IMG/VR virus record: IMGVR_UViG_3300032180_000010
Span: 1 to 49,660 of that record
Reading direction: 5' to 3' (one strand)
Source: a virus
DNA length: 49,660 nucleotides
Shown: positions 11,105 through 33,096 of the stretch, one piece after another
Numbering within the stretch: the stretch's first letter is position 1
Layout of the letters: each line of letters begins with the position of its first letter
Position numbers and translations under genes: made by a program
The notes under the pieces: model-generated
Database searches by the model: none
Told to the model about the DNA's origin: nothing
What the model saw: only the letters and a program-made list of their open reading frames with translations

Positions 11105-14100
11105 CGGCTTACCTTCCCTTTAAACCAATCCGATAGCGTCGCGGAATGTCCTTTGAGCGTGCCATAGCGCAGCCCAACTGCCCAGCCCCAGGGGCCTTTG
11201 GGCCTCTCTTGGTTGGTCGCTACGCCGTACCCGAACCGGGCGACCTTGCCCTCTTGGGCGTTGACCAACCCAGTCGCTGCGCCTGCGGCTGTGGCTGCAT
11301 GTTGGATCAGATGCCCAGCGTTCTGCTTGGTGAAGGACATCTTTTCCTTGGTTAGATCCCGTTGCAGGTCGGTGACGGTCTTGAGGGCGGTTGAGACCAG
11401 CCCAGCTGACGGGTCATGTCCTGTGGCCATGGCATGGACCACGTCACGGATGCCTACCCAGGACGAGGATAGGGAGAACCCGACGGCTTTCGTGACCTTC
11501 TTCGCCCAGCTTTCCTTCTCATCGTTGGTCATCGGGGTAACGAGTTCTTCGATCAGCGCCGGCCAGAAGACGTAGGCAACGAGGCTTGAGGCCATCCCAG
11601 GAACGTCCTTGGCGGCGTCTTTCCAATCCCCTGCCTTGACCTTCCCCAAGGTCTCCCCTGCCTTCCACGCCATCTCGTACTGGCGATTGAGGATGTGGGA
11701 GAAGAAGCCGTAGAGGGAGGTGAACCAGGATGAGCCGGGGCCACCTTGCATGATGGCTGCTCGGTTGGTGATGACGGAGGACCCGTGGGCCCTGCGAACG
11801 GCCCGGTCGGCCAGGAAGACGGCGTCTCCGTGGCTCCTGCCCTCGCCCATGGCGGTTTCGTACCGGGCTAGCCAGGTCGGCACAGCCGAGGCCAGGTCAG
11901 ACATCGCCACAGGCCAAGCGCCAAAGTGCTGCACGGTCTCCCGCCAGGTCATCTTCCCAAGGGTCTCAGTCTGGGCGCCTTTGAGAGTCTCAAAGTAATG
12001 CCTATGCCGACGCTGTAGCTCCTCGCTTGTATCCATAGCGAAGCGGTAGTTGCGCTCGCCAGTGCGGTCGTCGACTGAGAACAGGCTCATGGTGGCTTTG
12101 AGAAAGTTCTTCGCGCCAACCTCGTTCATGGAGTTTACAAGGGCCGTTGTGCCGTGCTTCAGTACAGTACCAGGGTTCAGCCCGATCAAGGTAGCGATGA
12201 CGTTCTGCCGAGTGCCTTCGAGGAACTTGCTCGCCCAAGCGGAGTTGGCGTTGCCGCGGTTTGCTGAGTTGGCAACATCTTGGAGGTAGGGATCGAGGAG
12301 ATCCCGGTAGACCTCGCCGTAATGGTGAGTAATCGCTGAGCGAACGTCCTTGTCGTAGAAGATCTTGCTGGCGTTGATGATGGCCGGTCGGAAGGAGATG
12401 TCGTGAAGCATGCTGCGGATCAGGTTCGCTGTGCCATCCAGAGACAGCTCTAGCGGAGCAACATAGTTCGAGCGCCTGATGGTGTACCCTCTGGGGGTCG
12501 TGGCTCGGACGTAGGCGTTGTCCTGTAGCGGATTTCGCCCCATCAGCTTCTGCGAGGAGCCTTCGAAGGTCTTGTCATAGACAACGGGGTGGTACCAACC
12601 GCGGTAGGTTCCGTGTGGGGACATTATCGGTTGGATTTCGATATTCTCAGGCTCAATCCCTGTGAGGTTACGGTACATGACGTCCGCTTCGCGCTTGATG
12701 TCGGCGAAGATATCCCCTTGCTTCTGGGCCCAATCCCAATCGGCCTTGGTAGCGTTGCGAAAGAGCCAGTCCATGATCCGGGTGGGTTCGACCTTGTATC
12801 CACGGGCGAGCTTATCGAGGTTGCTGGCGTTGCCGATGTTCTGCAACACGGCCCTAAGCTTGCCCCGGTTCATGACTAAGAAATCGTCCGTCCCAGGGAC
12901 TTTGAAGAGGTTGTTCTGAACCCGCTCGTTTAGATCGACCTTGTCCCCCAGAGCCCGGATGCGGTTGGCGTACTTACGCTCAAGCTTCGCCTCGTAGTTG
13001 GCGGAGTTCGCGAGATCGCGGATTACGTACTGGGTGAAGACCCCGTCAGGGTCGCCACGATCCCAGCGGTTGAACAGGGACTCCAGCTGAAGGTGCTTGG
13101 CACCAAAGGTCCGAATGGCCTTCATGGCCTTGGTCAGCCTCGTATCAAGCCCTGTCAGATCCTTCTTTGGGAATGTCTCAAGCTGCCCGATCATCTGGGC
13201 CTTAACCTGGTCTAAATCCGCCTCCTCTCCCTCGCGGTAGATCTTCTTCTCATCTCGGCCGTTCCTCACCAGGGCCTTAATCGAATCGTGTACCGCCCGG
13301 AACTCTGCGACCGACATATCGTCAACACGTTTGCGGAAGCCCTGATCGAGGAGGAAGTCAGCAACAGGGATTTCCCTAAAAGCACTCTCCTTCTCCGCCA
13401 CAAACTCTTCGAGAGTCTTGCCACCGAGGGATTGTTGGAGGTCTTGTATGGACCTTCGGATGGGCTCACCGACTCGTTGGAGGATGTCGTGGACCCAGTT
13501 GGTGTATTCTTGCTCAACGCTTGGTACCTCCCGCTTGGCCATGCGCTTGGCGGTCTTGTCGAAGCTCGTCCGTTCTTTCTCCAGCTTCTTCGCCTGATCG
13601 GCCTGAAGCAACGACATATACTGGCGTTGCTTTTCCTTGAAGGCCTCGCCAGGATCGTTCTTAAGCAACGCCATCTCGGCATTCCGTCCAGCCTTGCCAG
13701 CTTCGCGAAGGGACTTCTCCAGGCCCACCTGAGACACGTTCGACTCGTCGAAGGCCTTCTTCACCCAGGCCTTGAAGTCGGTCTTGGTGAAGGGCATAGC
13801 CGACCCAGTCTGTATCCCCAGGGCCACGACCTCCTCGTGGAGGAGATCCATCTGGGTCTCAGAGACCACGTGCTCCTGGGCCTCACGGAGGATGTTCTCG
13901 TCCAAGTCCCCGTACTCACGCTCCATCCGAGATCGGGTTTCCTGGTTCACGGCGAAGTCGAAGTACTCCGGGGCGGTGAGCTTCGCAGCGGTTCGGTTCC
14001 TCTCAATCTCAGCCAGCCGAGAGATCATGTAGTCGCCGGAAGGGTAGCCGAAGAGGCCCGCAGCGTCGTCGGGGTGGATGCCGTTAGAGCCATAGAAAGT

Positions 14101-16485: not shown

Positions 16486-18560
16486 CTCGGAACCTGGGGC
16501 TTGGTAGCTGCGCCGCCGTAGAGCTTTTGGTACTGCGAACGGACGTAGACCCTGCGGATCATGTCATCGGTTGGGACAATCCCGGTCTTCGCCCACTGCG
16601 GGTCGGCCTTGATCTTCTCTTCCTCGTCGCCTGGGACCGGCATTTCAAACATCGGATCGTGGGAGTTCCAGAGCCAACCAGGGGTGGTTTGTTCCTGGAG
16701 CAAATGCGCCCCGATCTCCTGGACTTGCTTAAAATCCGGCCGCTTCTTGGTCTCACCCTGGAAGGCATCGAGGGCGTCTTGCAAGGCCCCGGTGAATTGG
16801 TAATACCGTTCCTTGTCCTGGGCCTTGGTGACCCCAGCTGAGAACATCTGGCCCTGGAGGACCTGGAGGGCGTGGGTTACCCTCGGGTCGGTTTCAGCGT
16901 TGGCCTTGAGGCGAGATTGGAGGTTGATGAAGTGTTTCTTGGAGGCGTCAGAGAGCCCGGCTTCGCTCAAGACGTCGTGGGAAAGGAACTCTGCTGGGTC
17001 CTCTTGGGCCATCCCAGTCAGTCGCTGGTAGACTGTGAGATCGTCCTTGACGGCCTTGACCCTGCCGAGGTCTTTGATGATTTTCTTCTGCTGGGTTTCG
17101 TTGAGGTTATCCCAGGCCCTGGCGACGTCGGGGGAAGAGGCTTTGAGTTCATCGACTGTGGTGGGGATTTTACCAAAGTTCCCGACCAGGGCCCCGTTGA
17201 CGGTGTTGGTATTGCGGAAGTCCTCGTCGGCCTGGGCGGCTTTCTCACGATGGTGCATTGCGTCGACTTGCGCAATGGTGTAGTCCTGGAGGGTCGGGTC
17301 GAGCGGGGCTTGGTCCTTGGCCATTGCCGCCGCCCGGTCTTGCTTCTCCCCAAGGGACTGCGTCTTGGCGAGGTTGCGGTTGGTTTCCTGAAGGTACTTC
17401 GCCGCGTCGGTGCCAAGGGCGTCTTTGCCCACGGTCCCAATCCATCGCTTGGCCGCTTCGTTGAACGACCCGTACTTCTTCATGTAGTCCCCAAACCGCG
17501 AGGCGAAGAGTTCCTCCTGGGCGTCTTTGTCCTTGAGGAATTCCTCTGGCGTCATCGGCTTCATCCCAGCTTCCTTCAGGAACTCTGGGAGAAACTCCGT
17601 CATGACTTGGTACTTGCCAAGGGCCACTCCGTGCTTGGTCATGGGGCCTTTGGCTTGGTAATCTCCGCCGGACTCGAACTGGGAAATGGCTTGCTTGGCC
17701 CGATCCATGGTAACAACACCAGAACCCGGGGCCAAGTCATCACCAGTACTAACAGTATGAGCAATGTTGCGAGCGCCAGTAGTGTACATCCGCTGACGAA
17801 CGAAATTAGTCGTTGGTTCCAAGTCCTCGCCATGGATTGCCCCTTTCTGCCGAGCATCGTCGAGCATTTTCTGTGCTTGATACGGCTGGGTATGGGCAAG
17901 GCCTTTGATCCGTTGAGCCCAGAGGGACGAGGTCTGCTTGGCGAGTTCTTGGTTGGCCTGCGTGTCATCCCACCCTGCGGCATCGGCTTGTACCCCCACG
18001 CGTTCGCGGAGGTCGTTGAGGCCCTTCTGGAAGGCGACATCGTCAGTAGGCATCGACAGAGCTTGGTCTTTCGACGCCTCAATCCCTGCCTTGGCGGTAC
18101 CGAAGACCCATTGCTTCTGCTGCGTGGCCGCATGGCCAGCCCCGTTGAAGATCGTTCGGCCCATGGTTGAGAGGGAAGAAGAGTCGTACAGCTTTCGGGC
18201 CATGTCGTTGGACAGCCCGGAGCGGATGTTCTGTCGAAGGTCTTGTAGGCTCTTCATGTAAGGCTCAAGACCATCCTTCGCGGCCTTGCCTTGAAGCGCA
18301 GAGAACTGTCCGTGGAGTTCCCCTGCCTTCATCATGTACTGAGCATCAGCCTCACGGGCCTCGGTTTCGTTATTCAGGTTCTGCAGGGCCACTGCGCGGG
18401 AGAAGAGTTCGTTCCCGGCTTGCTCAGTGACCTTGCCCAAGCCCTCCAGGGCCGAGCCGATGTTGGCCCCAAAGGCCGCAGGGAATGCCTGGACATGTAC
18501 CCCAGGGGTCGCCTGGAACTGAGGGGTGTGGGTTGGGTAAGGCTGGTATGGGACTTGCAT
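16482..18560 (-). CDS. Internal virion protein with lytic transglycosylase domain
   Basis: 692 residues from MQVPYQPY, whose ATG overlaps the previous TGA (TGATG). A start 12 codons upstream overlaps the neighbour and has no better site. Residues about 286-330 carry the lysozyme-like pattern ISQFESGGDY (catalytic Glu near 296) and GKYQVM of SLT-type transglycosylases. The flanks are long helices, as in ejection proteins. It should locally open peptidoglycan during DNA entry. The stop overlaps the next ATG, so it is coupled to the giant protein. Confidence 0.85.
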   Translation of the reverse strand: MQVPYQPYPTHTPQFQATPGVHVQAFPAAFGANIGSALEGLGKVTEQAGNELFSRAVALQNLNNETEAREADAQYMMKAGELHGQFSALQGKAAKDGLEPYMKSLQDLRQNIRSGLSNDMARKLYDSSSLSTMGRTIFNGAGHAATQQKQWVFGTAKAGIEASKDQALSMPTDDVAFQKGLNDLRERVGVQADAAGWDDTQANQELAKQTSSLWAQRIKGLAHTQPYQAQKMLDDARQKGAIHGEDLEPTTNFVRQRMYTTGARNIAHTVSTGDDLAPGSGVVTMDRAKQAISQFESGGDYQAKGPMTKHGVALGKYQVMTEFLPEFLKEAGMKPMTPEEFLKDKDAQEELFASRFGDYMKKYGSFNEAAKRWIGTVGKDALGTDAAKYLQETNRNLAKTQSLGEKQDRAAAMAKDQAPLDPTLQDYTIAQVDAMHHREKAAQADEDFRNTNTVNGALVGNFGKIPTTVDELKASSPDVARAWDNLNETQQKKIIKDLGRVKAVKDDLTVYQRLTGMAQEDPAEFLSHDVLSEAGLSDASKKHFINLQSRLKANAETDPRVTHALQVLQGQMFSAGVTKAQDKERYYQFTGALQDALDAFQGETKKRPDFKQVQEIGAHLLQEQTTPGWLWNSHDPMFEMPVPGDEEEKIKADPQWAKTGIVPTDDMIRRVYVRSQYQKLYGGAATKPQVPR

Positions 18561-19093
18561 CAGGCGAATATCCCCAATCGCGAGGCGTCGAGCCATTTAT
18601 TCGACACCGAACTGGCACCGCCGAGGATGGTCGAGACTGCGTTGATGTAGCCCGAGGTCCTCGACGTCTGTGCGCCCATGCGGTCAAGCTCAGCCTGGGA
18701 GGCCTGGGACTCGGCCTCGACCTGGTACCCGTAGGCCCGCTTGGCTGCATCAGATCGGATCACGGCTTGGTTGTATTCACCGATCTTCTCCTCAGAGTCC
18801 CGAACGGCGGCGGCCGAGCCGGAGTTGACGTCGAGGCCGGCTGCGCCCTGCTGGGCTCTGGTCTCACCGATTTGGGCCCGGGTCTGCATGCCTGAGGCCT
18901 GGGACTGGCTTTCCCCAACCGCGATGGCGTAATCGGCGTTTTGCAAGGCAATCTGCTGGTTAACCTGGGCCACGCCAGCTTGGTATTGATACATGTTGGC
19001 TTCGGCTTGGCCTTTGTAGTTGGCCCCGAAGGCTCCCACACCAGCGCCAGCGGCCGTGAGGCCAATAGCGGTTAGGGAAATAGGATCAGCCAT
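18560..19093 (-). CDS. Internal virion protein, gp14-like
   Basis: 177 residues from MADPISLTAIG; a start three codons upstream is weaker. The N-terminus is a Gly/Ala hydrophobic segment (GLTAAGAGVGAFG), followed by Ala/Gln-rich helices typical of small core ejection proteins encoded before the transglycosylase protein. No direct motif exists; the assignment rests on composition and order (tail nozzle, GNAT-like, this gene, transglycosylase, giant protein), which matches T7 genes 12-16. Confidence 0.7.
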   Translation of the reverse strand: MADPISLTAIGLTAAGAGVGAFGANYKGQAEANMYQYQAGVAQVNQQIALQNADYAIAVGESQSQASGMQTRAQIGETRAQQGAAGLDVNSGSAAAVRDSEEKIGEYNQAVIRSDAAKRAYGYQVEAESQASQAELDRMGAQTSRTSGYINAVSTILGGASSVSNKWLDASRLGIFA

Positions 19094-19514
19094 GTGCCTC
19101 AATCCAAAATGGGATCATCTTGCCCTGTGGGTTGCCGTACCTCGCCCCCAGCCACCGAAGCCAGCGGATGCTCCGGGTCTGGGTCGCCTCGACGTGGCCT
19201 ACGATGGTTGGGTAGTGCTTGAGCATCTCATCCATCGCCAGCCGAGAGTAGCGGACGAAGATGAACTTGTGCTCGTCGACGAGGTCGGTTGTGAGCATCC
19301 AGAGATAGGCTCGGTCGGAGAGAATGGTCGGTGGGATCAGCCCCCAGATGCAGGCTACGATATCGTCGGCTACGCCGATCCAGGTGTAAGAGCTTCGGCG
19401 GTAGAAATCGGCGAGGGTCTCACAGGCGTCAGGCCGGTCTGCGACTGCGCTACGGCGGATGATTGAGCGGAAGTCTATGTAGGTACAGGTCAGTGGGCGG
19501 ATCTCAACGGTCAT
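19086..19514 (-). CDS. GNAT-like protein in gp13 position
   Basis: 142 residues from MTVEIRPLT, ATGA-overlapped with the tail nozzle gene; a longer open frame upstream is a shadow of that gene. Strands and helices follow an acetyltransferase-like order (YTWIGVADDIVACIWGL, LWMLTTDLVDEHKFIFVRYSR, and the terminal TRSIRWLRWLGARY). Phage proteins of this kind occupy the T7 gp13 slot and are virion-associated or assembly factors. Enzyme activity is not established. Confidence 0.7.
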   Translation of the reverse strand: MTVEIRPLTCTYIDFRSIIRRSAVADRPDACETLADFYRRSSYTWIGVADDIVACIWGLIPPTILSDRAYLWMLTTDLVDEHKFIFVRYSRLAMDEMLKHYPTIVGHVEATQTRSIRWLRWLGARYGNPQGKMIPFWIEAHG

Positions 19515-22150
19515 TTGCTGGTATCCCCTACCACGATCTCTGGGATGACACCAAGTACCGTCGCCGGGAGGGGGTTGTCCTGCTGGAGACAAATCTGCCC
19601 AGGGACGTCCCACAGGGCATCCATGACAATGCGTTCATCTCCGGTGATCAGCGGGATAGCTTGGCCGATCTGTACGTTGGGGTTTAGCTCTTTGATCGGG
19701 ATTAGGGTGTTGAAGGTTCGGCCGGCCTTGAGGCCACGGGTGTTCGTGGTCCGGACCGTAAGCGCCGCGATCTTCTTTCTCTTGCCCTGGACGGTCTCGC
19801 CGCCTTGGACGTCAAGCGGCATGGTTTGAAGCTGGCCGACGAAGCCAAGCCCGGCGATGACCTTCGTGGCTGGCTGAGAGAGGGTTATCTGGCCGGCGAT
19901 GACTTGCTGTGGAGGGACGACGGAGCCATCGGCGAGGATTGAGACGATGCTGCCGTTGAGGTAGTCGAGGCCGGAGAAGGTCGTGGCTGGCCGAGCCAGG
20001 GTCCAGTTACCAGAGGTCACCGGCAGGGGCGTGGCTAGGGGATCGTTGGGCAACACGGCAGTGATCGGCTGGGTAATGGTGGCGACGACAGCGACGTTGG
20101 AAAGGACTTGGGTAATCGTGGCGATGCCGCCTCCAGCTCGGATTACATCCCCTGGCAGGGCAGAGCCAAACGCAGGGACGTCAGAGACGAAGTTGCCAGT
20201 GCCGGTGGCGACTAGGGCCGGGCCAGTTGGACCCAGGGGATAGGTACTCGGGGCCGGAACGGCAGTGGTACCGGTGATGGTGAGGTTGGCCGCAGGGGCC
20301 GGCAAAGCCGACATGATCCCACAGTCCACACACCAAGCGTCTTCGGCCCCAAACGGAAACGTCCGATCGGCCATACGCTCGATCGTCTGCACCCAGATCC
20401 CACCAAGGAAGCGCTTGACGACGAAGTAAACCGCGTCGAACTGGCCCTCGGTGACCGTGGCAACGGATTGGAACAGGCCCAAGGTGTCATGCCTTGCCCA
20501 GCCAATCATCTCCTGTTCCTTGACGAAGGTCAGCGAGAGGAGGATACCGTCGTCACGGATGGCCCAAATGAGCTTAAAAGGTTCCTCAGCATAGGCCCAC
20601 TGGAGGATTTGGCGGTTGAAGAAGAGGTGGTTAGAGAGTACGGATATGTCTGCCCCTGTGTAGATGTTAGCGTAGATATTGTAGGTGAGATCCCGAACGA
20701 TTGCGCCCTTCTGCTGAACGTAGAGTACATCTTGATTAACGACGATCGGGGGGACATCTGAGGCTCCGTTATAGGCCTGGGGCGAGGCCGTGGCGTTGAT
20801 CGGGGTCACGGCTGAGGTCGAGGCGATGCCTGAGCCCGAGGATAGCTGCCAAGCGCCCTTGGCCGTGAGGATGATCAGCCCACCGGGCATAGGAAGCATG
20901 GAGTTGATCTTATTAACTTGCAGGCTGACCAGGGTTCCAGTGATGGACGAGTCGGCCTGGACCGGGTCGTTGGTGTTGAAGTTATTATAAGCCCCAGGGA
21001 CTGATCCCCAGAAGGTCTGCGGGAGGGAGTTCGATCCTGCGTAGTAGATCCGTTGCTGGAAGAAGCACACGCAGCCTGGGTTGTTACCGGCTGCAAATGG
21101 GTTCTGCACCACCGGTGGCGAGAAGTCGAAGTTCGGGACGATGTTGGAGTCAATCGCAGAGGCCCCGGTCACCGACTGCTGAAAGCCAAAGGCCGCGCCA
21201 GTCGGGGGCAGGGTAGCGCCAACGGACTGCTCGGCACGGTAGACGTTGTAGGCCACAGCGCCGGAAATCGGTGCCCAGGAGACGGTGATGGTTCCAGCAG
21301 TGGTGGTGATGTTAACGCAGTTGGAGATAGTCCCAGGGGCCGAGGGGATCGATTCCTGCCCAGCGTTGTCCACTGCTGTGACTTGGTAGGCGAAGCTTGC
21401 CCCGGTGCCGGATGTGGCGGTGACCGAGGCGATCACCGGCGATGAGATCGTAGCGCCGAAGGAGATCGGAGCGAAGGCCCAGGAGGTCGGGGCCGTGAAG
21501 GTAAGGAGCTGTGGGGCGTAGTTAGGATGCGTCAGATACATCGTGTTGGTGATTTGAACGAACTTAACCAACGCGAGGTCAGCTGCGGCGTAGGGCGAGG
21601 CGAATTTGTAAACCCTGGCGATGGTGCCACCGCTGACCCAGGCGGGGTAGCCAAGGCTATTAATCGGCTGGCCATTGACGGTGGCGATGGTGATGTTGTT
21701 CCCGGCGACGTTCGTGGCGAGGAAGAACAACCCATTGAGCTGGGTCATGCCCACGATGCCAGTGACGAATATCCAATCGCCAATGACGATGTTGTGACCA
21801 GGGGCGGTGATGACGGCAGGGTTGGCCTGGGAGACCGCGGTGATGTTGAACGAAGCTTCGAGAACCGACGCGCCTTTGGAGATCACTCGGCAGTAGAAAT
21901 CGCCGAACTCGAGGATATAGGGGATGAGGATAGAGGTTTGAAAAGGGATTAATCGAACAGCCGAGGAGGATTTGAATGCCTGAACAACGTACTTGGACCC
22001 AGGCCGAGTGCTGGCGCCAGAGCGGTAGTCGACGAAGAAGTTACGAAGCGCAGCTGCACCTGAGTGATACTTGGTCAGGTCGGTGCGAGCGAAGATGCTC
22101 GGGGCTAGCTCGCCTGCTGCGAAACTTGTTTGAATAAGATTGGTACTCAC
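19511..22150 (-). CDS. Tail tubular protein B / nozzle (gp12-like, 879 aa)
   Basis: GTG start overlapping the HNH stop (GTGA), with GGAGAG of the HNH 3' end as ribosome-binding site. The opening STNLIQTSFAAGELAPSI and RNFFVDYRSGASTRPGSKYV are the hallmark of podovirus tail nozzle proteins. The middle (about 240-310) contains a fibronectin-III-like stretch (ASFAYQVTAVDNAGQESIPSA), and the rest is beta-rich. It forms the distal tail tube below the gp11-like adaptor encoded upstream. The ATGA overlap couples it to the gp13-position gene. Confidence 0.9.
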   Translation of the reverse strand: MSTNLIQTSFAAGELAPSIFARTDLTKYHSGAAALRNFFVDYRSGASTRPGSKYVVQAFKSSSAVRLIPFQTSILIPYILEFGDFYCRVISKGASVLEASFNITAVSQANPAVITAPGHNIVIGDWIFVTGIVGMTQLNGLFFLATNVAGNNITIATVNGQPINSLGYPAWVSGGTIARVYKFASPYAAADLALVKFVQITNTMYLTHPNYAPQLLTFTAPTSWAFAPISFGATISSPVIASVTATSGTGASFAYQVTAVDNAGQESIPSAPGTISNCVNITTTAGTITVSWAPISGAVAYNVYRAEQSVGATLPPTGAAFGFQQSVTGASAIDSNIVPNFDFSPPVVQNPFAAGNNPGCVCFFQQRIYYAGSNSLPQTFWGSVPGAYNNFNTNDPVQADSSITGTLVSLQVNKINSMLPMPGGLIILTAKGAWQLSSGSGIASTSAVTPINATASPQAYNGASDVPPIVVNQDVLYVQQKGAIVRDLTYNIYANIYTGADISVLSNHLFFNRQILQWAYAEEPFKLIWAIRDDGILLSLTFVKEQEMIGWARHDTLGLFQSVATVTEGQFDAVYFVVKRFLGGIWVQTIERMADRTFPFGAEDAWCVDCGIMSALPAPAANLTITGTTAVPAPSTYPLGPTGPALVATGTGNFVSDVPAFGSALPGDVIRAGGGIATITQVLSNVAVVATITQPITAVLPNDPLATPLPVTSGNWTLARPATTFSGLDYLNGSIVSILADGSVVPPQQVIAGQITLSQPATKVIAGLGFVGQLQTMPLDVQGGETVQGKRKKIAALTVRTTNTRGLKAGRTFNTLIPIKELNPNVQIGQAIPLITGDERIVMDALWDVPGQICLQQDNPLPATVLGVIPEIVVGDTSK

Positions 22151-22626
22151 CGAGCAAACTCTCCATAATGCTTCTTACGTGCTTCAATATAAGCTGCTTC
22201 GGCTTCGCGTGGCGTGTCAAAACTACCTAACTCCAGCCTTTGGCCATTTAAATACAACCTAGCCCTAAACTTCTTACCGTGCTGCTCCCAACCACGCCCT
22301 GGCTTTTTGTTCATCATATTCTGTGAATGCGTGCACGCTCTTAGATTACTCAATCTATTATTAGTGCCATCATCATCTTTGTGATCTATTCTATCTACCC
22401 ACTCACCATATTCATACACCCAAATGAGTCTATGAGCTAGATACTGTTTGTAATCTACCGTGATTGCGATATAGGGTTTACAATTGTAAACAGTAACGCT
22501 ACCAGCCAACTTACCTGCAAATCTACCATTCCAATTATTTGGCATGTTAGAACGATGCTTCCACACAAGCCAACCATCATCATAATCATACTCAAATATT
22601 TGTCTTAGGTACTGTTGCGTTAGCAT
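22147..22626 (-). CDS. HNH homing endonuclease with AP2 domain
   Basis: 159 residues, AT-rich compared with neighbours. HNH core: RIDHKDDDGTNN...LSNLRACTHSQNMMN. AP2-like end: KFRARLYLNG, LELGSFDTPREAEAAY. It sits between the gp11-like and gp12-like tail genes in the same orientation and ends GEFAR; the GGAGAG coding GE is the ribosome-binding site for the nozzle gene. A selfish insertion that preserved expression of its neighbours. Confidence 0.93.
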   Translation of the reverse strand: MLTQQYLRQIFEYDYDDGWLVWKHRSNMPNNWNGRFAGKLAGSVTVYNCKPYIAITVDYKQYLAHRLIWVYEYGEWVDRIDHKDDDGTNNRLSNLRACTHSQNMMNKKPGRGWEQHGKKFRARLYLNGQRLELGSFDTPREAEAAYIEARKKHYGEFAR

Positions 22627-25038: not shown

Positions 25039-26196
25039 TCAGGTCTTGATGATGTAGTTCATGATCATCGTGGGTTCGACGGTCACGGTAGGACTGCCCC
25101 CGCCTTGGCTGGCGACGGTGTGGGTGTGGGAGTCTTGGGTCAGGGTAGTCGTGCCGAGGCCTGAGGAGGTTGTGAAAACCCCAGTGATGTTGTCCGGCCC
25201 GCCGCCAGAGGTTGTGGTTTTCTGATACCGGAACGAGTCCTGAGTGCCGCCAGTGACACCGCCGTGGTTATGGGAGGGGAGTTGGGCCACGGAGATGGTC
25301 TGTGTCTCAGCGCCGCCAGAGTTGCCAAGGGTCGTCGCGCCACCGGTGATGGAGGTTGCGGTCAAGCGATTGGCTGCGATGCCGCCTTGGTTATCCAGAT
25401 TGGCGATGACCCGACCACGGAGATCGGGGACGTTGAAGGTGGTGACGCCGTCGCCGACGCCATAGGTAGTGCCGATGGCGGCAAAGAGCGCTGCGGTTGC
25501 CCCGGTACGTGAGACGGCTTGGCCAAAGCAACCGAGGTACCCCGAGGGGATCACTGAGCCCGCGAAGGCCTTGACCACGCCAGAGGGCTCAGGGGCCACG
25601 CCGGTCAGGCCCAGTAGGGCAAGGCCAGCGGCCAGGGAGGCTGAGCCAACAACTGGCGCCCAGGCTGAGGAAACGGTCCCTGCTGGGAGGGTGGCGATAG
25701 CTGTGGGGTTGCCAGAGGAGTCCCAACCGAAGGCGAGGTTGGCTCGATTGGCGACGGCCGGGATCAGGCCAGGGGCGGGGTCAGAGACGGCAACGGCGAG
25801 CTGGCGGCCAAGGAGTTCCTGAAGCTGCTGAACAAGCATGGTCTGGTAGTCCAGGGCTTGCTCAATCGCAGCTTGGTAGGCCGTGCTTTGATTGGCCAGG
25901 GAGACCGGTTGGGTCTCAGGGAGGGTGCGAAGGATAGTGAGGGAAGTCCCGGTGGCGATTGGCGAGCCGATCAGGGGATAGGTTACGTTGCCGCCAAAGG
26001 CCGTTGGGTTCGGCGCCACCGGGGGGAACAGGGCGACGGAGTAGAGGTTAGAGGCGAGGAGGGTGACAACGCCAGTTGCGTCGGTGAAGAAGACCTGGAG
26101 GTCGCTCGCGGCCACCGCAGGGAAGGTGAAGCCGAAGATCGTCGTGGCGCCATTGCCCGCGTAGGTGATCTTGTTCGAGGTGGTCGAGACGGTCAT
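25039..26196 (-). CDS. Tail fibre protein with phage collar domain
   Basis: 385 residues from MTVSTTSNKITYAG; an upstream open extension overlaps the neighbour. The N-terminal 140 residues are a virion-attachment beta domain (NGATTIFGFTFPAV, a common tail-fibre/spike start). The middle is helical and trimer-like (YQAAIEQALDYQTMLVQQLQELL). Residues 255-330 are a collar domain (GSVIPSGYLGCFGQ, FNVPDLRGRV), and the Gly/Thr/His-rich end holds a GGxHxHxV-like tip (SHNHGG, SHTHTV). It is the only gene here with clear receptor-binding features. Confidence 0.85.
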   Translation of the reverse strand: MTVSTTSNKITYAGNGATTIFGFTFPAVAASDLQVFFTDATGVVTLLASNLYSVALFPPVAPNPTAFGGNVTYPLIGSPIATGTSLTILRTLPETQPVSLANQSTAYQAAIEQALDYQTMLVQQLQELLGRQLAVAVSDPAPGLIPAVANRANLAFGWDSSGNPTAIATLPAGTVSSAWAPVVGSASLAAGLALLGLTGVAPEPSGVVKAFAGSVIPSGYLGCFGQAVSRTGATAALFAAIGTTYGVGDGVTTFNVPDLRGRVIANLDNQGGIAANRLTATSITGGATTLGNSGGAETQTISVAQLPSHNHGGVTGGTQDSFRYQKTTTSGGGPDNITGVFTTSSGLGTTTLTQDSHTHTVASQGGGSPTVTVEPTMIMNYIIKT

Positions 26197-26198
26197 GG

Positions 26199-27473
26199 CT
26201 AGTTCCCATACCGAGCGAGGTCGCGGTAGCCGATGGTTGAGCCGACCAAGGTGTCGCCCGCACCGCTCGTGGACCACCGAATGCGGATCGCAGCTGAGGT
26301 ATTGGTCAGCGTCCGCACGACGTTCTGGCTGTGTGTGGTGGCGGCTAGGACGCATTCTACGGATTGCAACGTCGTACCCGGAGCCGTGTCAGCAACGCCA
26401 AGCGATGAGACCAGTATCTGGGGATTGGTGGTATTGTTGCTACAATACAGGGTGTTGATCGCCTCAACAATGATCCCACGTGGCGTCGTCAGCGTCACGC
26501 TCACAGCCGACGTCCCAGGGTTCGACTGGTTAATGTCGGTCTGGAACGGCGCGTCGTACATGAACATGTCGACGGATTGCTGGAACTTGCGAATGTTCGG
26601 CGTCGCGTCGGTCAGGAACGATCCGATGTAACGCTTCTTCGTGTAGTTCGTCGGCATGGTAGGCGATGGCGTGACGCCTGCGGTCTCAACAGTGCAGACG
26701 AAGTCTACCACCTGCGTGTCGGTCCGCTCGATCTGGAAGATCGCGTACCAAGTGTTGGTGGCGACCGATCCCGTGTCGAGACAGCCGTTTCCCGAGCCCA
26801 CTGCCCACGCTGCGGTGGTCTTGGTAAAGGCCGCAGCCTTCATCAGGGTGGAATTGTCGTCGGCATTAGTAGTACAGGCGGTGTTTGAGATCGTCGTGTT
26901 GGCGCCGGTGGCGGAGAGGGTACAGCCCCCAATGAAGTTCGCGAACAGCGTAGCGTCGGTCGTTGACGAGATCGTGCCGCAGCCAATGCCGGTGTTCGTG
27001 GTCCACTGCAACGCCGAGGTCGCCGTCGAGCACGATGGCATCGCCATATCGGAGGCGTTCGCCGTGGCCGAGGTTGGGTTGGCCTTGACGGTATTAGCCG
27101 CCATCTGGGCGGCTTTGGCGTTGGTGACGATGTTGGTGGTGATAGTCGTGGCGACGGTGCCTGCGGAGCTCGTCACATCGCCAGTCAGCGCTGGCATCTG
27201 TGCGGCTGTGACTGACCCAGTCAGGTCGGAGAAGGCCGGCTGTGCACAGGTCGACAGCCCAGCCAGGATCGACGTGACGAACTGATGCGTTGGGCAGGTG
27301 ATAAAGAACGGAGAAAGCGCCGAGCCGACGAACCGAGTGTTAGCCGCGGCGTTGGTCGAGTCCCCGGCTGGCCGATCGGCGACGACGCAGTTGGGGTTGG
27401 TCGGGCCGCAGCCTTGGGCCAAGGCCGGGCCGGCGAAGAGGACGAGGCCGAGGGCTAGGAGAAGCCGTTTCAT
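26199..27473 (-). CDS. Exported cysteine-rich beta protein (424 aa)
   Basis: Starts with a textbook Sec signal peptide (KRLLLALGLVLFAGPALAQ). The mature part has 12 cysteines, an even number, which suits disulfide bonding outside the cytoplasm, and is Thr/Ala/Asn-rich and beta-like. The C-terminal 150 residues (KRYIGSFLTDATPNIRKF...) resemble repeats found in phage side-fibre proteins. ATGA-overlapped with its neighbour and upstream of the tail fibre. Either it is exported into the envelope during infection or the signal has another use. Function unknown. Confidence 0.75.
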   Translation of the reverse strand: MKRLLLALGLVLFAGPALAQGCGPTNPNCVVADRPAGDSTNAAANTRFVGSALSPFFITCPTHQFVTSILAGLSTCAQPAFSDLTGSVTAAQMPALTGDVTSSAGTVATTITTNIVTNAKAAQMAANTVKANPTSATANASDMAMPSCSTATSALQWTTNTGIGCGTISSTTDATLFANFIGGCTLSATGANTTISNTACTTNADDNSTLMKAAAFTKTTAAWAVGSGNGCLDTGSVATNTWYAIFQIERTDTQVVDFVCTVETAGVTPSPTMPTNYTKKRYIGSFLTDATPNIRKFQQSVDMFMYDAPFQTDINQSNPGTSAVSVTLTTPRGIIVEAINTLYCSNNTTNPQILVSSLGVADTAPGTTLQSVECVLAATTHSQNVVRTLTNTSAAIRIRWSTSGAGDTLVGSTIGYRDLARYGN

Positions 27474-27820
27474 ACGTTCGAATCCATAATCGTCAGGGGA
27501 TTGTTAACCCCGCTGGCTGCGAGGGCTTTCCACGCCGTTTGGCACTCCCCTGAGACGACCAAGACGCCGCCTGAGAAGATCGGGAAGGTCCCACCGAGAG
27601 CAGCTAGGGTTGGAGTCAAGGCAGCGCCGTTGAGGTCGACCGAGGGACAGACGTAGATCGTAACCGCGCTGGGGTTGGCAAAGGTCAGCTGCTGGCGAGA
27701 CGGGTTCGCGGCTACGACCTGGATTGCGGCTGTGCCCAGGTTGTTGACCGCACTGACCTTGCCACCTGAGGCAGCGCCAATAGCCCCGGGGCTGCCTGTG
27801 CTATTGGCGATGATGCCCAC
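27470..27820 (-). CDS. Small beta-rich virion-type protein (116 aa)
   Basis: GTG start (residues GIIANSTGSPG) with GGAGG upstream. Sequence is small-residue-rich with alternating strands (AIQVVAANPSRQQLTFANPSAVTIYVCPS), like head-decoration or fibre-base proteins. No signal peptide, unlike both neighbours on each side. Function unknown. Confidence 0.7.
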   Translation of the reverse strand: MGIIANSTGSPGAIGAASGGKVSAVNNLGTAAIQVVAANPSRQQLTFANPSAVTIYVCPSVDLNGAALTPTLAALGGTFPIFSGGVLVVSGECQTAWKALAASGVNNPLTIMDSNV

Positions 27821-27823
27821 GGG

Positions 27824-28360
27824 TTATGCCCTCCGCTCGCCGTTGACCTTGGCCGCCAGCGTGGCGAGGATAGCCGCGTTCTGCTTCATCAGCTCCATCA
27901 TCTGGCCCTGCATTTCCATGAACTGCTGAGCTGGAACCCCAGCGGATTGGGTCGTGGCCATGGTCTCCGCGACCTGCCGCTGAAGGTCGGTCAGGAGGGA
28001 CTGGGAGTAGTTGCCAGGGAGGGACTCAATCGGATGCTGCCAGTTGGCGCTGGCCGCCTCAGAGATGGCCTGGGCCTCTTCGTCGATCGGCTCCATATCC
28101 GGGGTCGGCGGACCGGAGAAGATCAGGTCCTTCGGGTCGGCGTTGACGCCGTCGCTGACATTGATGTTCCCACCGATGACCTGGCCGGATTGGGAACGGA
28201 AGACCTCGTTCCAATCTGCCGGGTCCTCAGGGTTGAGGAACAGCGGAACGGGGAAGATCTTGCGGACCTGCTTGCCAGTCCCGCGGTCGATCTCCTTGTA
28301 CTCCCACTCAGTGCCTTTGACATTGAGGTAGTGCGGCTGGGTTAGACGCCATCTTGCCAT
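27824..28360 (-). CDS. Late protein with coiled-coil tail (178 aa)
   Basis: AGGAGGCCGAT precedes the ATG. The N-terminal 60 residues look like a small fold (HYLNVKGTEWEYKEIDR, KIFPVPLFLNPEDPADW). The last 60 are helical and Gln/Met-rich (QFMEMQGQMMELMKQNAAILATL), probably a coiled coil. Found between exported proteins and the fibre genes. The family is unknown to me. Confidence 0.65.
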   Translation of the reverse strand: MARWRLTQPHYLNVKGTEWEYKEIDRGTGKQVRKIFPVPLFLNPEDPADWNEVFRSQSGQVIGGNINVSDGVNADPKDLIFSGPPTPDMEPIDEEAQAISEAASANWQHPIESLPGNYSQSLLTDLQRQVAETMATTQSAGVPAQQFMEMQGQMMELMKQNAAILATLAAKVNGERRA

Positions 28361-28369
28361 ATCGGCCTC

Positions 28370-28660
28370 CTAGAGAACGATCCAAGTCGTTCCGTTGCAG
28401 TAAACAGCCACATGCACAGCGCCGCCAGAGGCGACGGCTGCAAGGGCTGCGGGAACAAGCGCGTCGGTAACGCCGAAGATCAGGCCTTCGGTCGCGGCGT
28501 TGCAGGGTGGCAAGCCGGCTACGGTTGCCTTCTGTGGCTGTGGGCCCGATCCAGTTCCAGTTCCGCCCATAGCCAGAGGGACAGGAATGGGAACGCTTTG
28601 GCGAATATCCTGGGCTTGTGCAGAGCCACAGAGGAGCAGGAAGAGAGCTAAGGTTCTCAC
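28370..28660 (-). CDS. Small exported protein (96 aa)
   Basis: GTG start at 28660 overlaps the previous stop (GTGA) and gives a compact signal peptide RTLALFLLLCGSAQAQ; an ATG five codons upstream is possible. The mature part is about 78 residues with two cysteines (PPCNA, VYCNG) and a beta-like end ending TTWIVL. No family recognised. Confidence 0.68.
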   Translation of the reverse strand: MRTLALFLLLCGSAQAQDIRQSVPIPVPLAMGGTGTGSGPQPQKATVAGLPPCNAATEGLIFGVTDALVPAALAAVASGGAVHVAVYCNGTTWIVL

Positions 28661-29934
28661 TGTTGATACCCCCAAGCGTTGATGGAAGTAGCAGTGTTGC
28701 CTGCGGCACCAGGGACGGTGACTACCACCGCGGTGTTAACCGCAGAGCTGGGAAGGCAGTAGTTGCCGAAGGAGAAGCTCACAGGGGCATTGGCCACAGC
28801 AGCACCGGCGGCGAAGGTGTAGGCCCCGGTGAAGGTGAAGGCGTTAGGCAGGCCGGTAATGGTCGGTGTGACCGAGGTCGCAGCGGTGGCCCCGAGGCCA
28901 GTGATGTTGAAGCCACAGATGTAGGTGAACTTAGCCGCTACTGCAGCGAGGGTAGCGGTGGCTGTCGTGGTATCCGCAGCGTTAAAGACTGCTGTGACCG
29001 GCGTTGACCCTGGTGGGAACCCGGCTGAGCCTGAGCCAGCAGCGACGGTGCCTTGGGTGGTGTTCAGAGCCCCAAGGGGGCTGACCGTAGCCTGTCGCCA
29101 TCCGAAGGTTCCATCCCGAATGGCCGTGGCGTTGCGAGACGAGTCGCCGATGGTTACTTGGTTTAGCTGAAGGGTCGCAGACGACGTCGGAGGGCTCGCT
29201 GCGGCGACGGTAAGGGCACCGATGGCGAGGGTGTTGACGTCAGGACCGCCAGCACCGGTCAGGACCTCGGCTACGAAGTTCCCGTCGACGAACCAGAGGA
29301 TGCTATCGCCACGGAAGTAGATCTGGTACTTGTGAACCCCCGCATCGGTTGGCTGGGGGATACAGTTACAGAACTGAGGACCGGTGGTACGAACGGATAG
29401 GTCGATGTTGACGTTAATCGCCCCCGACGCCCAGGTCTGTGCCCTGAGCTTCCCAGCGGTATCGATAACAAAGCCAACGGCGTTGGTCAGCGGAGCCGCG
29501 GCCGTTGGGGTACCTGGAGCTGAGAAGAACCCAAAGAACCGATAGGCGTTGGAGAGGACGGGGAATTCCCAGTTGACCTGGAACTGGAGGGTGACGTAGC
29601 CAGGGTTTCTCCCAGCAAAGGTCGGTTGGGAGATAAGCTGGGAGAAGCCGTTGGCTTGGTTGCCAGAGCCGAGGACGGTGGCACCGACGGCGTTGGTAGC
29701 GGCGGTCGCATTGCCTCCACCGCCCGTAGTCGGAGTGCTCCAGCGATTGGTGGTGTCGAGGGTGCCAGTGCCGAAGTCGTCCCAGAATAACTGGGCGTTT
29801 TCGAGCTTGACGTTGAAGGAGTTCCCATCGACGGACGGGAAAACAGTGGGCGGAGCAACGGTCTGCTCCAACCCCTGGGCAAAGGCACTGGCTGGAAGCA
29901 GCGCCAGTGCAAGAGCCAGCCAGTGCTTTTTCAT
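28657..29934 (-). CDS. Exported lectin/LamG-like protein (425 aa)
   Basis: Signal peptide KKHWLALALALLPASAFAQ. Residues about 45-230 read like a concanavalin A/LamG jelly roll (FWDDFGTGTLDTTNRWS, YRFFGFFSAPG, HKYQIYFRGDSILWFVDGNFV). The last 130 residues form a second beta domain (TYICGFNITGLG...NYCLPSSAV). Four cysteines remain in the mature part. A carbohydrate-binding surface protein is a reasonable inference. It lies within the virion operon. Confidence 0.75.
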   Translation of the reverse strand: MKKHWLALALALLPASAFAQGLEQTVAPPTVFPSVDGNSFNVKLENAQLFWDDFGTGTLDTTNRWSTPTTGGGGNATAATNAVGATVLGSGNQANGFSQLISQPTFAGRNPGYVTLQFQVNWEFPVLSNAYRFFGFFSAPGTPTAAAPLTNAVGFVIDTAGKLRAQTWASGAINVNIDLSVRTTGPQFCNCIPQPTDAGVHKYQIYFRGDSILWFVDGNFVAEVLTGAGGPDVNTLAIGALTVAAASPPTSSATLQLNQVTIGDSSRNATAIRDGTFGWRQATVSPLGALNTTQGTVAAGSGSAGFPPGSTPVTAVFNAADTTTATATLAAVAAKFTYICGFNITGLGATAATSVTPTITGLPNAFTFTGAYTFAAGAAVANAPVSFSFGNYCLPSSAVNTAVVVTVPGAAGNTATSINAWGYQQ

Positions 29935-29937
29935 GGT

Positions 29938-30372
29938 TCAACCCGGTGACATGCAGACGATGTTGTAGACGGTCGAGGCCACGTCGACGGTCATGGAGAT
30001 CGCCGTGGCGGAGACGGTGTAGGTCGGCTGAACCGCTGCGCCCTGAGGAGTGATCACACAGGCCGGAGCGGTGGTGAAGGCTGTGCCAAAGGTAACGGTA
30101 CAGGTGGTGGCGGCAGAGCCGGTGGTCAGGCGAAGGGCATTGTCCGACCCAGTGAAAGACGGGGAAGTGCCACAGGTTGAGAGGGCCGGAGGGAGGCTAC
30201 CGCGGGTGGTTGAGTTGATATGCCCCGGGAAGTTTACCCCGTTGTTGGTATCATACCCAACCAGCCCAGTTGGGTCCTGGGACAGCTGGACGGATTTGGT
30301 AATGTTCTGCCCAATCGCGGCGCCGGCAAAGCAGGCGAGGATTAGGAGAGAGGGAAGGAGGTACTTACGCAT
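29938..30372 (-). CDS. Exported beta-rich protein (144 aa)
   Basis: Signal peptide RKYLLPSLLILACFAGAAIGQ; the ILAC could alternatively be a weak lipobox. The mature region has four cysteines (STCGT, TTCTV, PACVI, IVCMS) and Thr/Ala/Val strands. GAGGAATA precedes the ATG. Function unknown, grouped with its exported neighbours. Confidence 0.72.
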   Translation of the reverse strand: MRKYLLPSLLILACFAGAAIGQNITKSVQLSQDPTGLVGYDTNNGVNFPGHINSTTRGSLPPALSTCGTSPSFTGSDNALRLTTGSAATTCTVTFGTAFTTAPACVITPQGAAVQPTYTVSATAISMTVDVASTVYNIVCMSPG

Positions 30373-30375
30373 GGG

Positions 30376-31008
30376 TTATTCCTCTGTCCACACGATTGAG
30401 CCATTCCAAGCCGAGGCGTTGGTCAGGGTAGCACCGCCGAGGCTGACACAGATCTGGGCCGCGGCGCCAATGAGCACCGGGGGCTGAACGAGGTTCTCAG
30501 TGTCACGCGAGAAGTGGAAGTCGGCCGCGGTTGGAACAGCGACCGAGGTCACCACAGGCATGGTCAGGAGCTGAGAGTCGAGGAAGGTCGGCGAGGCGTC
30601 GTTCACGGTTGGGTTGGCTGTGTAGGAGACCACCACAGCCGTGGCGGCGCCGATCGAGGTGTCTCGCTTGGCGACGTTGTTGGCTGGGTTGGCGGTGGTG
30701 CTAGCAGCAGTGCCACCGGTATCGACCAAGACCCGTCGAAGGAGCTGGACGGGGACGATCTGCACCGCAGTGGCGGTGGTGCCCCAGATTTGAATCCGCT
30801 GAAGGCGGACGGTCTTGGTCGCCGAGCCGGCGATACAGACGACGTCGGTACCGCCGGAGACCGGGACGAGGCCGAAGAAGCCAGCGGAGTAGGTGTTCCG
30901 GGTGAGATACCCGGTGGTCAGGCCAAGCTGCGGGACGACGTTGACCTGTGCCATGGCCGGGGTGGCAAGCGCCACCAAGGCCAGAGCGGTGAGCCAAAGG
31001 CGGCGCAT
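30376..31008 (-). CDS. Exported beta-rich protein (210 aa)
   Basis: Signal peptide RRLWLTALALVALATPAMAQ. Mature part has two cysteines (VVCIAG, QICVS) and beta strands such as TVRLQRIQIWGTT. ATG overlaps the previous TAA (TAATG), directly downstream of the capsid cement gene. Function unknown; a lipid-free periplasmic or surface protein by its signal. Confidence 0.74.
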   Translation of the reverse strand: MRRLWLTALALVALATPAMAQVNVVPQLGLTTGYLTRNTYSAGFFGLVPVSGGTDVVCIAGSATKTVRLQRIQIWGTTATAVQIVPVQLLRRVLVDTGGTAASTTANPANNVAKRDTSIGAATAVVVSYTANPTVNDASPTFLDSQLLTMPVVTSVAVPTAADFHFSRDTENLVQPPVLIGAAAQICVSLGGATLTNASAWNGSIVWTEE

Positions 31009-31541
31009 TAGTTGGCCACCGTGATCCCGGCGGGATAGCCGCCGAGGACTGCGTTACCGGTCGACTGGTACATCTGGTCGATGCGGTCGAGGACGACGTA
31101 GGCCGAGGCGGTGCCTGCGGTCATGGTTGCACCGGCCACGGTCCAGAGCAGGCGGACGAACCGAGGGACGGCGATGCCGGCTGGCGGCCGGGGGAAGTCC
31201 ATGTCGAACAGCCGAGCACCGGCCACGAGGGTAGCCAGGGCATAGGTCGGCGAGGTCCACCAAGTGGTGAAGGCGCCGGGGGCACCAGCACCGTTATCAG
31301 GGGCGCCCTGGAGAGCGACGGAGAGAGTGCCAGCGCCGCCAGAGGTAAAGGTCGTACCGACCTGAGCCAGGAGCTTGAGGGCCGGGTCGTCCCCGATCCC
31401 CATGTCCCTGGCGCCTTGGAGGTTGGCCAGGACCGGAATGCCGGCCATGTGGAGATCGAGGGTGTTCTGTGAGGCCTGCGTGCCAACGGCGATAGCGAGG
31501 CTGGCAGCAGAGTCGAAGGTGGCAAGGGCGTCGAGGATCAT
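31008..31541 (-). CDS. Capsid cement protein, Bbp16-like
   Basis: 177 residues opening MILDALATFDSAASLAIAVG, then LDLHMAG and ARDMGIGDD, a GTLSVALQG strand, FPRPPAGIAVPRFVRL and a final VVLDRIDQMY. This is the pattern of Bbp16-type cement proteins of BPP-1-like podoviruses, which stabilise the capsid. It follows the major capsid gene, as in that group. Confidence 0.78.
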   Translation of the reverse strand: MILDALATFDSAASLAIAVGTQASQNTLDLHMAGIPVLANLQGARDMGIGDDPALKLLAQVGTTFTSGGAGTLSVALQGAPDNGAGAPGAFTTWWTSPTYALATLVAGARLFDMDFPRPPAGIAVPRFVRLLWTVAGATMTAGTASAYVVLDRIDQMYQSTGNAVLGGYPAGITVAN

Positions 31542-31543
31542 GA

Positions 31544-32587
31544 TCAGGTCACCCGGGCTTCGTTGTTGAGGACTGCATCACAGGTACGCACCGGGATGCC
31601 GCGGAAGGTGGTGATGGGCTTGCCATCGAACTCCTCGATCCGGAGGAGGACGTTGGTTTTGTTCATCGCCTGGAGGTCGAGGTAGGTGCGGATGACGCGG
31701 TTGCAATACAGCACCGTCCGACCCATATTGGCCCGGACCTCTGGGGAGTCCGAGGTCTGGACGGTCGTGGCAGAGACCGGCGCGGTCGGCAGACGGTAGA
31801 GCCCGCGGACGATCAGGTTGATCAGGTTGGCCGCGGAGACGCCGGTGAGCTGGGTGACGTCGATGTTGGAGATGCGGAAGGCGTAACGCCAGTCGCGACC
31901 CACGAGGCCGATCTCCCACTTGAAGTGGTCTCGGTAGGCCTGGTAGGTGTTCCCGCTGGCGTCCTGCACGGGCCACTCGCCCATGTCCTTGTGCTGAAGG
32001 CCGGTGATTTTGCCCTTGGGGAAGGTCGCGTGCCAGGTGTCCGATCCCCAGACCACGCCCCAGATGGAGGTGTTGGTCGAGCCGGTGCCGCCGCCGTCGA
32101 GGACGTTGGCCGCGGTGTTGGAGTTGGCCGCATTGACAGTCGAGTACCGCGGGGCAAGGCCGGTGAAGCGCTCTGGGTTCACCGACTGGTTGCCGTAGAT
32201 CAGGGTCGAGGCGACCTGCTGGGACATGCCTTCGAGGAAGGCCTTGACCTCAGACAGGCGGAACTCGGCGGTATTGCCGTTGAGATCGGCGATGTCCTTG
32301 TCGATGACCGCGTAGGTCTCAAGGTTGCCACAGGCATCGGTGATCTGCGCGGTGGTCGACTTCGCGTTCGGCACGCCCTGGTTGAGCAGGCGCCAAGTGG
32401 CCTGGGGCAGGCCAGTACGGACGGTGGTTTTGTGCCCCGTCGGGAGGTTGCCCTCGATAACCAGGAGGTCTTCGAGGATCTCGTTGGTCTGGCTGAGCAG
32501 TTCGATGATGCTGGCGATGCGGTAGCCATCATCGACTCGCTTGGCCCAGTCCATGTAGGTAAGGGCAGTTGAGCCCACGATTGCCAT
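31544..32587 (-). CDS. Major capsid protein (BPP-1/Bbp17-like)
   Basis: 347 residues. Starts AIVGSTALTYMDWAKR and has features of the BPP-1-type capsid group (IIELLSQTNEILEDLLVIEGN, GLPQATWRLLNQGV, SEVKAFLEGMSQQVASTLIYGN). Order scaffold, HNH, capsid, cement supports it. The start overlaps the HNH stop (TAATG), with GGAG just before. HK97 fold expected. Confidence 0.9.
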   Translation of the reverse strand: MAIVGSTALTYMDWAKRVDDGYRIASIIELLSQTNEILEDLLVIEGNLPTGHKTTVRTGLPQATWRLLNQGVPNAKSTTAQITDACGNLETYAVIDKDIADLNGNTAEFRLSEVKAFLEGMSQQVASTLIYGNQSVNPERFTGLAPRYSTVNAANSNTAANVLDGGGTGSTNTSIWGVVWGSDTWHATFPKGKITGLQHKDMGEWPVQDASGNTYQAYRDHFKWEIGLVGRDWRYAFRISNIDVTQLTGVSAANLINLIVRGLYRLPTAPVSATTVQTSDSPEVRANMGRTVLYCNRVIRTYLDLQAMNKTNVLLRIEEFDGKPITTFRGIPVRTCDAVLNNEARVT

Positions 32588-33096
32588 TATAGGACTCCGA
32601 GATCAGAGTTCATGCGGGAAAAGTAGAATTCCCCTTGGTGAAGTTTAGCAGCCACCTCAAAAGCCTCGTGGGCCTCTTTAGCACTGCTAAACGTACCGAG
32701 CCAAACGATTTGGTCTTGGACCTTGATCTGAGAATACCAGTGACTGGTTCTGCGATCGAAGTAAGCTCCTCTGAGCCCCGAAGTACCAACGGCCCGTTCA
32801 GAATTGTGGTTATTCTGGGTAGTAGTTGCCTCTCTTAGATTATCGATTTTGTTGTTGCTGGGATCACGATCAATATGATCAAGTAAAGCAGGCCAAACGC
32901 CATAGACGTATAACCATGCCAGGTTGTGCGCTCTATAGGGCTTGCCATTAATCTTGATCTCTATATATCCCTTAGCCGTAACACAACCAGCAACAGTACC
33001 AGCCATTGCCCTAGGACCGCGATCGATACGGTTGACGAACCAACCGTCGGTAGGATCGTAGTCGAACAAAGCTTTGAGCTGTTCTTGTGTAATCAT
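32587..33096 (-). CDS. HNH homing endonuclease with AP2 domain
   Basis: 169 residues. HNH core LLDHIDRDPSNN...IDNLREATTTQNNHN and AP2-like WYSQIKVQDQIVWLGTFSSAKEAHEAF. Inserted between scaffold and capsid genes; its ATG overlaps the scaffold stop (ATGA), and its stop overlaps the capsid ATG. The tail after GEF extends 14 residues and carries GGAGT, the capsid ribosome-binding site. Confidence 0.93.
   Translation of the reverse strand: MITQEQLKALFDYDPTDGWFVNRIDRGPRAMAGTVAGCVTAKGYIEIKINGKPYRAHNLAWLYVYGVWPALLDHIDRDPSNNKIDNLREATTTQNNHNSERAVGTSGLRGAYFDRRTSHWYSQIKVQDQIVWLGTFSSAKEAHEAFEVAAKLHQGEFYFSRMNSDLGVL

Follow-up and report, generated by a model that had tools for sequence, protein, structure and literature searches.

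The 49.7-kb viral record IMGVR_UViG_3300032180_000010, which was analyzed over its whole length and is referred to here as the window, represents a podophage from soil that has BPP-1, phiV10, and epsilon15 among its relatives. The head–tail block of this phage lies on the minus strand, and the interval between its capsid cement gene (31008–31541) and a collar fiber gene (25039–26196) is composed of five genes encoding proteins with signal peptides and two genes encoding proteins without them (27824–28360 and 27470–27820). In the window and its relatives, the proteins with signal peptides carry paired cysteines, their larger members are homologous to tail fibers made without a signal peptide and stand in for a giant fiber of sister phages, and some relatives have this fiber split at a domain boundary. 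Based on these features, we posit that exported, oxidized fiber parts reach the virion as lysis mixes the cellular compartments, which we consider the most likely reading, with the balance for and against it about even.

Signal peptides and paired cysteines of the cassette proteins

A preliminary description of this sequence had placed five genes with signal peptides between the capsid cement and tail fiber genes. The five open reading frames (ORFs) are present, all are called by the heuristic with which we identified signal peptides from their n-, h-, and c-regions, and the flanking genes match the expected families (Bbp16, 1e-9; Collar, 9e-19). Exactly these 5 of the ~53 genes of the window receive a call, and the adjacent head and tail genes score none, also in agreement with the description. 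The first exported gene encodes a 210-aa protein of family C (30376–31008; signal peptide 30949–31008), the start of which is overlapped by the stop of the cement gene; its mature form of 190 aa has one conserved cysteine pair. It is followed by genes for a 144-aa protein of family D (29938–30372; signal peptide 30310–30372) with two conserved cysteine pairs, a 425-aa protein (28657–29934; signal peptide 29878–29934) with 4 mature cysteines, a small protein of 96 aa read from a GTG at 28660 (28370–28660; signal peptide 28613–28660) with 2 mature cysteines, and a putative tail-fiber-type protein of 424 aa (26199–27473; signal peptide 27417–27473) with 12 mature cysteines. The start of the gene at 28370–28660 overlaps the stop of the gene that precedes it. 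Our recount of mature cysteines (12, 2, 4, 4, and 2 in ascending order of coordinates) reproduces the earlier numbers, all of which are even.

Each of the five N-termini has a positive n-region, a hydrophobic h-region, and small residues at −3 and −1, as expected for Sec export and signal peptidase I. The predicted cleavage sites are ALA↓Q (26199–27473), AQA↓Q (28370–28660), AFA↓Q (28657–29934), and AMA↓Q (30376–31008); the site in 29938–30372, AIG↓Q, was set by the family alignment, the heuristic's own site lying 3 residues earlier. On a control stretch of E. coli K-12, calls of the heuristic fell on 0 of 20 cytosolic proteins, on most Sec proteins, and on some N-terminal membrane anchors. 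Shuffled N-termini were called for 5 of 962 non-signal proteins (<1%) and 7 of 176 signal proteins (4%). The five exported proteins gave nothing significant in Pfam or PHROGs, and the PDB sequence search likewise gave nothing, the query of one PDB run being solely the family C profile. A protein search found no match in named phages for the 28657, 30376, 28370, and mature 29938 proteins, and no Pfam lysis domain is present in the five.

Signal peptides recur among 80 viral contigs with closely related capsids, which we found using the major capsid protein (MCP) of the window (31544–32587, minus strand) as the query; sequences compared with the window bear labels such as L010. Signal-peptide ORFs make up 33% (147/445) of the slot between capsid and fiber genes versus 2.9% (13/441) upstream of the capsid gene; the slot is hypervariable in gene content yet rich in signal peptides, and at least one such gene is present in 15 of the 16 distinct loci in which both slot boundaries are visible. 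Homologs of the family C protein have a signal peptide in 45/45 cases and those of the family D protein in 73/74; the signal is kept at mature identities to the window proteins of 27–77%. A glutamine occupies P1′ in 87 of the 176 non-redundant signal-peptide proteins (clustered at 50% identity). Cassette members of L056 (4713), L143 (8062 and 5109), and L173 (9287) have Tat-type signals with an RR motif and AxA↓Q (for example, ITRRSLLKTAGIAAPAIITLPRLADAQ in L056), and gene clusters of one kind thus appear to make use of two export routes. Members of family B, which are small proteins, may have lipoprotein-type signals (LLYGCGEP, LLGCQPSSAQ), for which signal peptidase I sites are equally possible. 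In more distant relatives (Pseudomonas prophages, Gastranaerophilales genomes, phiV10, and the Caulobacter Rauchvirus phage Jess A), the cement gene is directly followed by tail genes or by short genes that lack a signal peptide. Two close relatives, L082 and L083 (86–87% capsid identity), were binned in metagenome-assembled genomes of Terriglobia and Telmatospirillum, respectively, although the binning of viral contigs is unreliable.

Signal-peptide genes resembling fibers are also present in L185, L186, L193, L246, and L250, phages for which we saw no such capsid; in L246 (an 86.9-kb phage), L250, and L186, signal-peptide gene clusters lie inside the head or tail genes. The Bradyrhizobium phage ppBdUSDA122-1 (L242, OP596612.1) encodes two consecutive exported proteins after its tail-tip gene (5311–9392), one of 482 aa (WAX24264.1) with 6 cysteines in all and one of 865 aa (WAX24263.1), annotated as a tail fiber protein, with 18 cysteines in all. 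The phage is named and is produced spontaneously by Bradyrhizobium diazoefficiens USDA 122; as this host can be cultured, the phage offers a usable test system both for docking at lysis and for the decoy role considered below.

Even cysteine numbers are a property of the signal-peptide proteins. Among the non-redundant proteins of this class that contain cysteine, 140 of 164 have an even number (77.5, or 47%, expected; p = 2.6e-24); proteins without a signal peptide have no such bias (317/738 versus 321.6 expected). When each single-linkage family is represented by a single protein, the number is even in 36/47 signal families versus 222/494 others. In families A, C, and D, cysteine columns are gained or lost strictly in pairs, and unpaired cysteines number 0 in 59 sequences: the paired columns are co-present in 22/22 and 26/26 cases in family D, in 20/20 (columns 58–203), 2/2, and 3/3 in family C, and in 4/4 and 3/3 in family A. 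Such strict pairing is a disulfide signature and suits an oxidizing compartment rather than the cytoplasm. Homologous exported and non-exported fiber segments have no clear cysteine difference (10 versus 15 over 2317 aligned columns); pairing therefore belongs to the whole exported proteins and not to the shaft segments that they share with other fibers. Given signal peptides and paired cysteines, the cassette proteins almost certainly leave the cytoplasm, and their export and disulfide formation, which the preliminary description had proposed, are strongly supported by the conservation of signals across divergent families, the even cysteine numbers, the pairwise covariation, and the Tat-type neighbors in relatives.

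Tail fiber homology and the split fiber

We classify the larger exported proteins as tail-fiber-type proteins from their alignments. The exported protein of L010 (11422–13026) matches the Pfam Phage Tail Collar domain (1.4e-14) and PHROG tail fibers (3e-18); that of L145 aligns with the C-terminal part of an 828-aa fiber of L073 that lacks a signal peptide (40% identity over 311 aa, E 4e-52); and that of L033 shares a module with the giant non-exported DLDQSG fiber of L013 (57% over 171 aa). In the window, the C-terminal domain of 26199–27473 (residues 176–421) has homologs without a signal peptide in the tail regions of Rhizobium and Bradyrhizobium phages, where they adjoin baseplate or tail genes, and part of the protein matches, more weakly, the C-terminal portion of the L071 collar fiber, which lacks a signal peptide; no profile match to tail fiber or collar families was found for 26199–27473 in Pfam or PHROGs. 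The C-terminal domain of 28657–29934 (about 278–425) is common to other exported phage proteins, and the family D domain forms part of large exported proteins (500–860 aa) in other phages as well.

The AlphaFold2 (AF2) model of the family D C-terminal domain weakly resembles H-type lectins and phage fiber tips (Foldseek E 0.2; VIA Z 6–7). The earlier suggestion that one of the proteins is lectin-like thus stands weakly for 29938–30372; for 28657–29934 there is a GH16 match in Pfam that falls below threshold. The family C model is a jelly-roll of TNF-like type (AF2 pLDDT 87), with a best Z of 8.8 to a plant virus capsid and further similarity to C1q/TNF-type proteins. Family C was also considered as a paralog of the Bbp16 cement protein, which we rejected (hhalign probability 0.2%).

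Large exported proteins replace the giant fiber rather than accompany it: an exported protein of at least 400 aa is encoded in 0/8 loci with a giant DLDQSG fiber versus 7/8 loci without one (Fisher p = 0.0014; 16 loci, relatedness ignored). The DLDQSG domain itself, of 136 aa, either forms the N-terminus of the giant fiber, in many cases ahead of a poly-glycine linker, or is encoded by a stand-alone gene that stops where the domain does. Of 16 readable stand-alone genes, 12 directly precede an exported fiber gene, frequently with an overlap of 16–19 nt, and a giant non-signal fiber followed by an exported fiber gene was found in 0/15 cases. In phages with the stand-alone gene, the comparison of sequences therefore demonstrates a fiber split at a domain boundary, with the distal part carrying the export signal. 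Proteins with a DLDQSG-like domain located behind a signal peptide are encoded in L078 (11698), L148 (6440), and L151 (3521).

In the window, the layout is the same, but the short partner differs. The gene at 27470–27820 (minus strand) encodes a short protein without a signal peptide, occupies the slot of the stand-alone DLDQSG domain of relatives, and overlaps the start of the exported fiber gene at 26199–27473; we infer that its product is a candidate virion-side partner of this exported fiber. Neither the tail fiber homology, nor the fiber split, nor the breadth of the cassette was part of the preliminary description, the observation of which is thus confirmed and the interpretation of which is supported in part.

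Possible assembly in two compartments and alternative readings

We hypothesize that the genes form a variable cassette of exported tail-fiber-type and adhesin-like proteins, which would be made late in infection alongside the products of the head and tail genes. The preproteins would cross the inner membrane by Sec in the window and by Tat for some cassette members in relatives, would be cut by signal peptidase I, and would have their paired disulfides oxidized in the periplasm; translocation, signal peptidase I cleavage, and Dsb-type oxidation of such preproteins are established. Large members stand in for the giant cytoplasmic fiber of sister phages; the short N-terminal domain would remain in the cytoplasm, probably on the virion, while the distal fiber is exported. 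Because the head–tail particle forms in the cytoplasm, exported fibers could reach the virion only after the inner membrane fails at lysis; once holin and endolysin have mixed the contents of the two compartments, the exported part would most likely join the particle by docking on the short domain that had stayed behind. Cleavage, periplasmic oxidation, docking to virions at lysis, and a role in receptor or polysaccharide binding are all predicted from genes. For the complete scheme of two-compartment assembly, in which cytoplasmic heads and tails and periplasmic receptor-binding fibers are joined at lysis through a split fiber, our confidence ranges from somewhat below even to even at best.

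Several points weigh against this scheme. The presence of the exported proteins in the periplasm or in virions is a prediction from gene sequences. The heuristic cannot tell cleaved signals from anchors, as its calls of N-terminal anchors in E. coli show, and cleavage is therefore not provable by it. The virion attachment of the DLDQSG domain is an assumption, and the exclusion between giant and exported fibers rests on 16 related loci and may have been caused by packaging limits. Small proteins of families A and B are exported with or without a giant fiber in the same locus; not all exported proteins are therefore fiber replacements. Finally, the window has a complete collar fiber, and an extra fiber is therefore perhaps unneeded for adsorption.

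The main rival, which we judge unlikely though far from negligible, is that the proteins are secreted decoys or a surface coat that, from the periplasm or once lysis has occurred, bind surface polysaccharide or receptor of the host, block superinfection or the sticking of virions to debris, and never join virions. Export, which it shares with docking at lysis, is strongly supported; the lectin-like or jelly-roll folds agree with it weakly, the hypervariability suits surface ligands, and the export of small members irrespective of a giant fiber is readily accommodated. However, the large members are homologous to non-exported fibers, mutually exclusive with them, and split at the N-terminal domain, which suggests a fiber role, and expression coupled to the capsid cement is late for a superinfection block. 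The preliminary description had offered a host coat, a superinfection block, and pick-up by virions during lysis side by side; sequence does not separate them, and the comparative data favor pick-up, in the form of split tail fibers.

We consider it improbable that these are moron-type or lysogenic conversion genes, that is, acquired envelope proteins of the lambda Lom or Bor kind, by which the surface of the host is altered. In favor are the signal peptides, the variable content, and the position beside tail genes, this position being as with lambda Lom (PMC12309495), but the genes overlap or abut the cement and fiber genes, fiber modules are common to exported and non-exported fibers, and signs of an own promoter or terminator are not above chance in the 24.5–39.2 kb region (1 promoter-like site against 1.9 expected, with the sigma-70 consensus only, and 10 terminator-like sites against 10.2 expected). 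Less probable again is that the N-terminal segments are hydrophobic anchors that stay uncleaved and either hold the proteins in the virion or enter a membrane in the course of infection: the heuristic is blind to this distinction, but the conserved AxA↓Q or G↓Q sites with their frequent glutamine at P1′, the Tat-type signals found in cassettes of this kind, and the cysteine pairing, which indicates an oxidizing compartment, all argue against such anchors. An artefact of gene calling, composition, or assembly, which metagenomic contigs and small overlapping genes might invite, has next to no probability and is refuted by the low rate of calls on shuffled N-termini and by the recurrence of the pattern in dozens of independent contigs and in ppBdUSDA122-1.

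If docking of exported fibers or a secreted role is borne out, a widespread soil lineage would have either two-compartment assembly with disulfide-stabilized receptor-binding proteins or secreted adhesins acting around lysis. The exported fibers are now annotated as hypothetical proteins, and signal peptides in late genes could help to find receptor-binding proteins.

Genome context and comparison with known systems

The window has no nucleotide match to named phages. Its MCP is ~50–54% identical to that of phiV10-type phages and, together with the cement protein of the Bbp16 family, bears out its membership in the BPP-1/epsilon15-like group. The collar-domain tail fiber, which lacks a signal peptide (start at 26196, MTVSTTSNK...), also matches PHROG tail families, and the conserved protein at 27824–28360 (minus strand; MARWxL...HYL family), likewise without a signal peptide, separates two groups of exported genes. 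Three mutually similar small proteins (7808–8314, 22147–22626, and 32587–33096) resemble HNH homing endonucleases, and small proteins of a similar kind adjoin the capsid gene in L026, L030, L078, and L179. The region 5333–7875 contains replication genes, including one ORF in which a uracil-DNA-glycosylase-like part appears by eye to be joined to an exonuclease-like part; the family A DNA polymerase (Pfam 1.4e-33) is encoded separately, behind this ORF. Three adjacent genes at 11101–19102 (minus strand; 1794, 704, and 180 aa) encode 0 cysteines in 2678 residues and are probably internal virion or ejection proteins. Beside an M15-type endolysin (10631–11104), an ORF at 9952–10400 (minus strand) has a strongly hydrophobic N-terminus ending in AVAAMAQ with two cysteines downstream; its product, which the heuristic did not call because of a long N-region, is likely a further exported or lysis protein.

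Tailed phages are regarded as assembling their virions entirely in the cytoplasm, and full-text literature searches, from the coverage of which most subscription journals are absent, found no account of exported tail fiber cassettes. Lambda Lom and Bor, T5 Llp, Cor, SAR endolysins, and spanins are exported accessory proteins of phages, encoded by single genes and acting at the envelope or in lysis. They use host export, as the cassette proteins are predicted to do, but do not form a multigene fiber-type cassette in the head–tail block. Coat proteins of filamentous phages such as M13 pIII (compare PMC8310372) are virion proteins inserted by Sec/YidC before assembly. Filamentous phages, however, assemble at the membrane without lysis, unlike the window phage, which is tailed and has an HK97-type capsid built in the cytoplasm. 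The closest likeness in MCP, Bbp16-type cement, and head–tail gene order is to the BPP-1/phiV10/epsilon15-like podophages (Rauchvirus, Uetakevirus); in contrast to the window, phiV10, the Caulobacter phage Jess A, and the Pseudomonas prophages have only short non-signal genes between the cement and tail genes. Cytoplasmic fibers with collar, PHROG tail fiber, or DLDQSG modules share sequence modules and a genome slot with the window-type proteins, which differ from them in having a signal peptide, paired cysteines, and an N-terminal domain encoded by a separate short gene.

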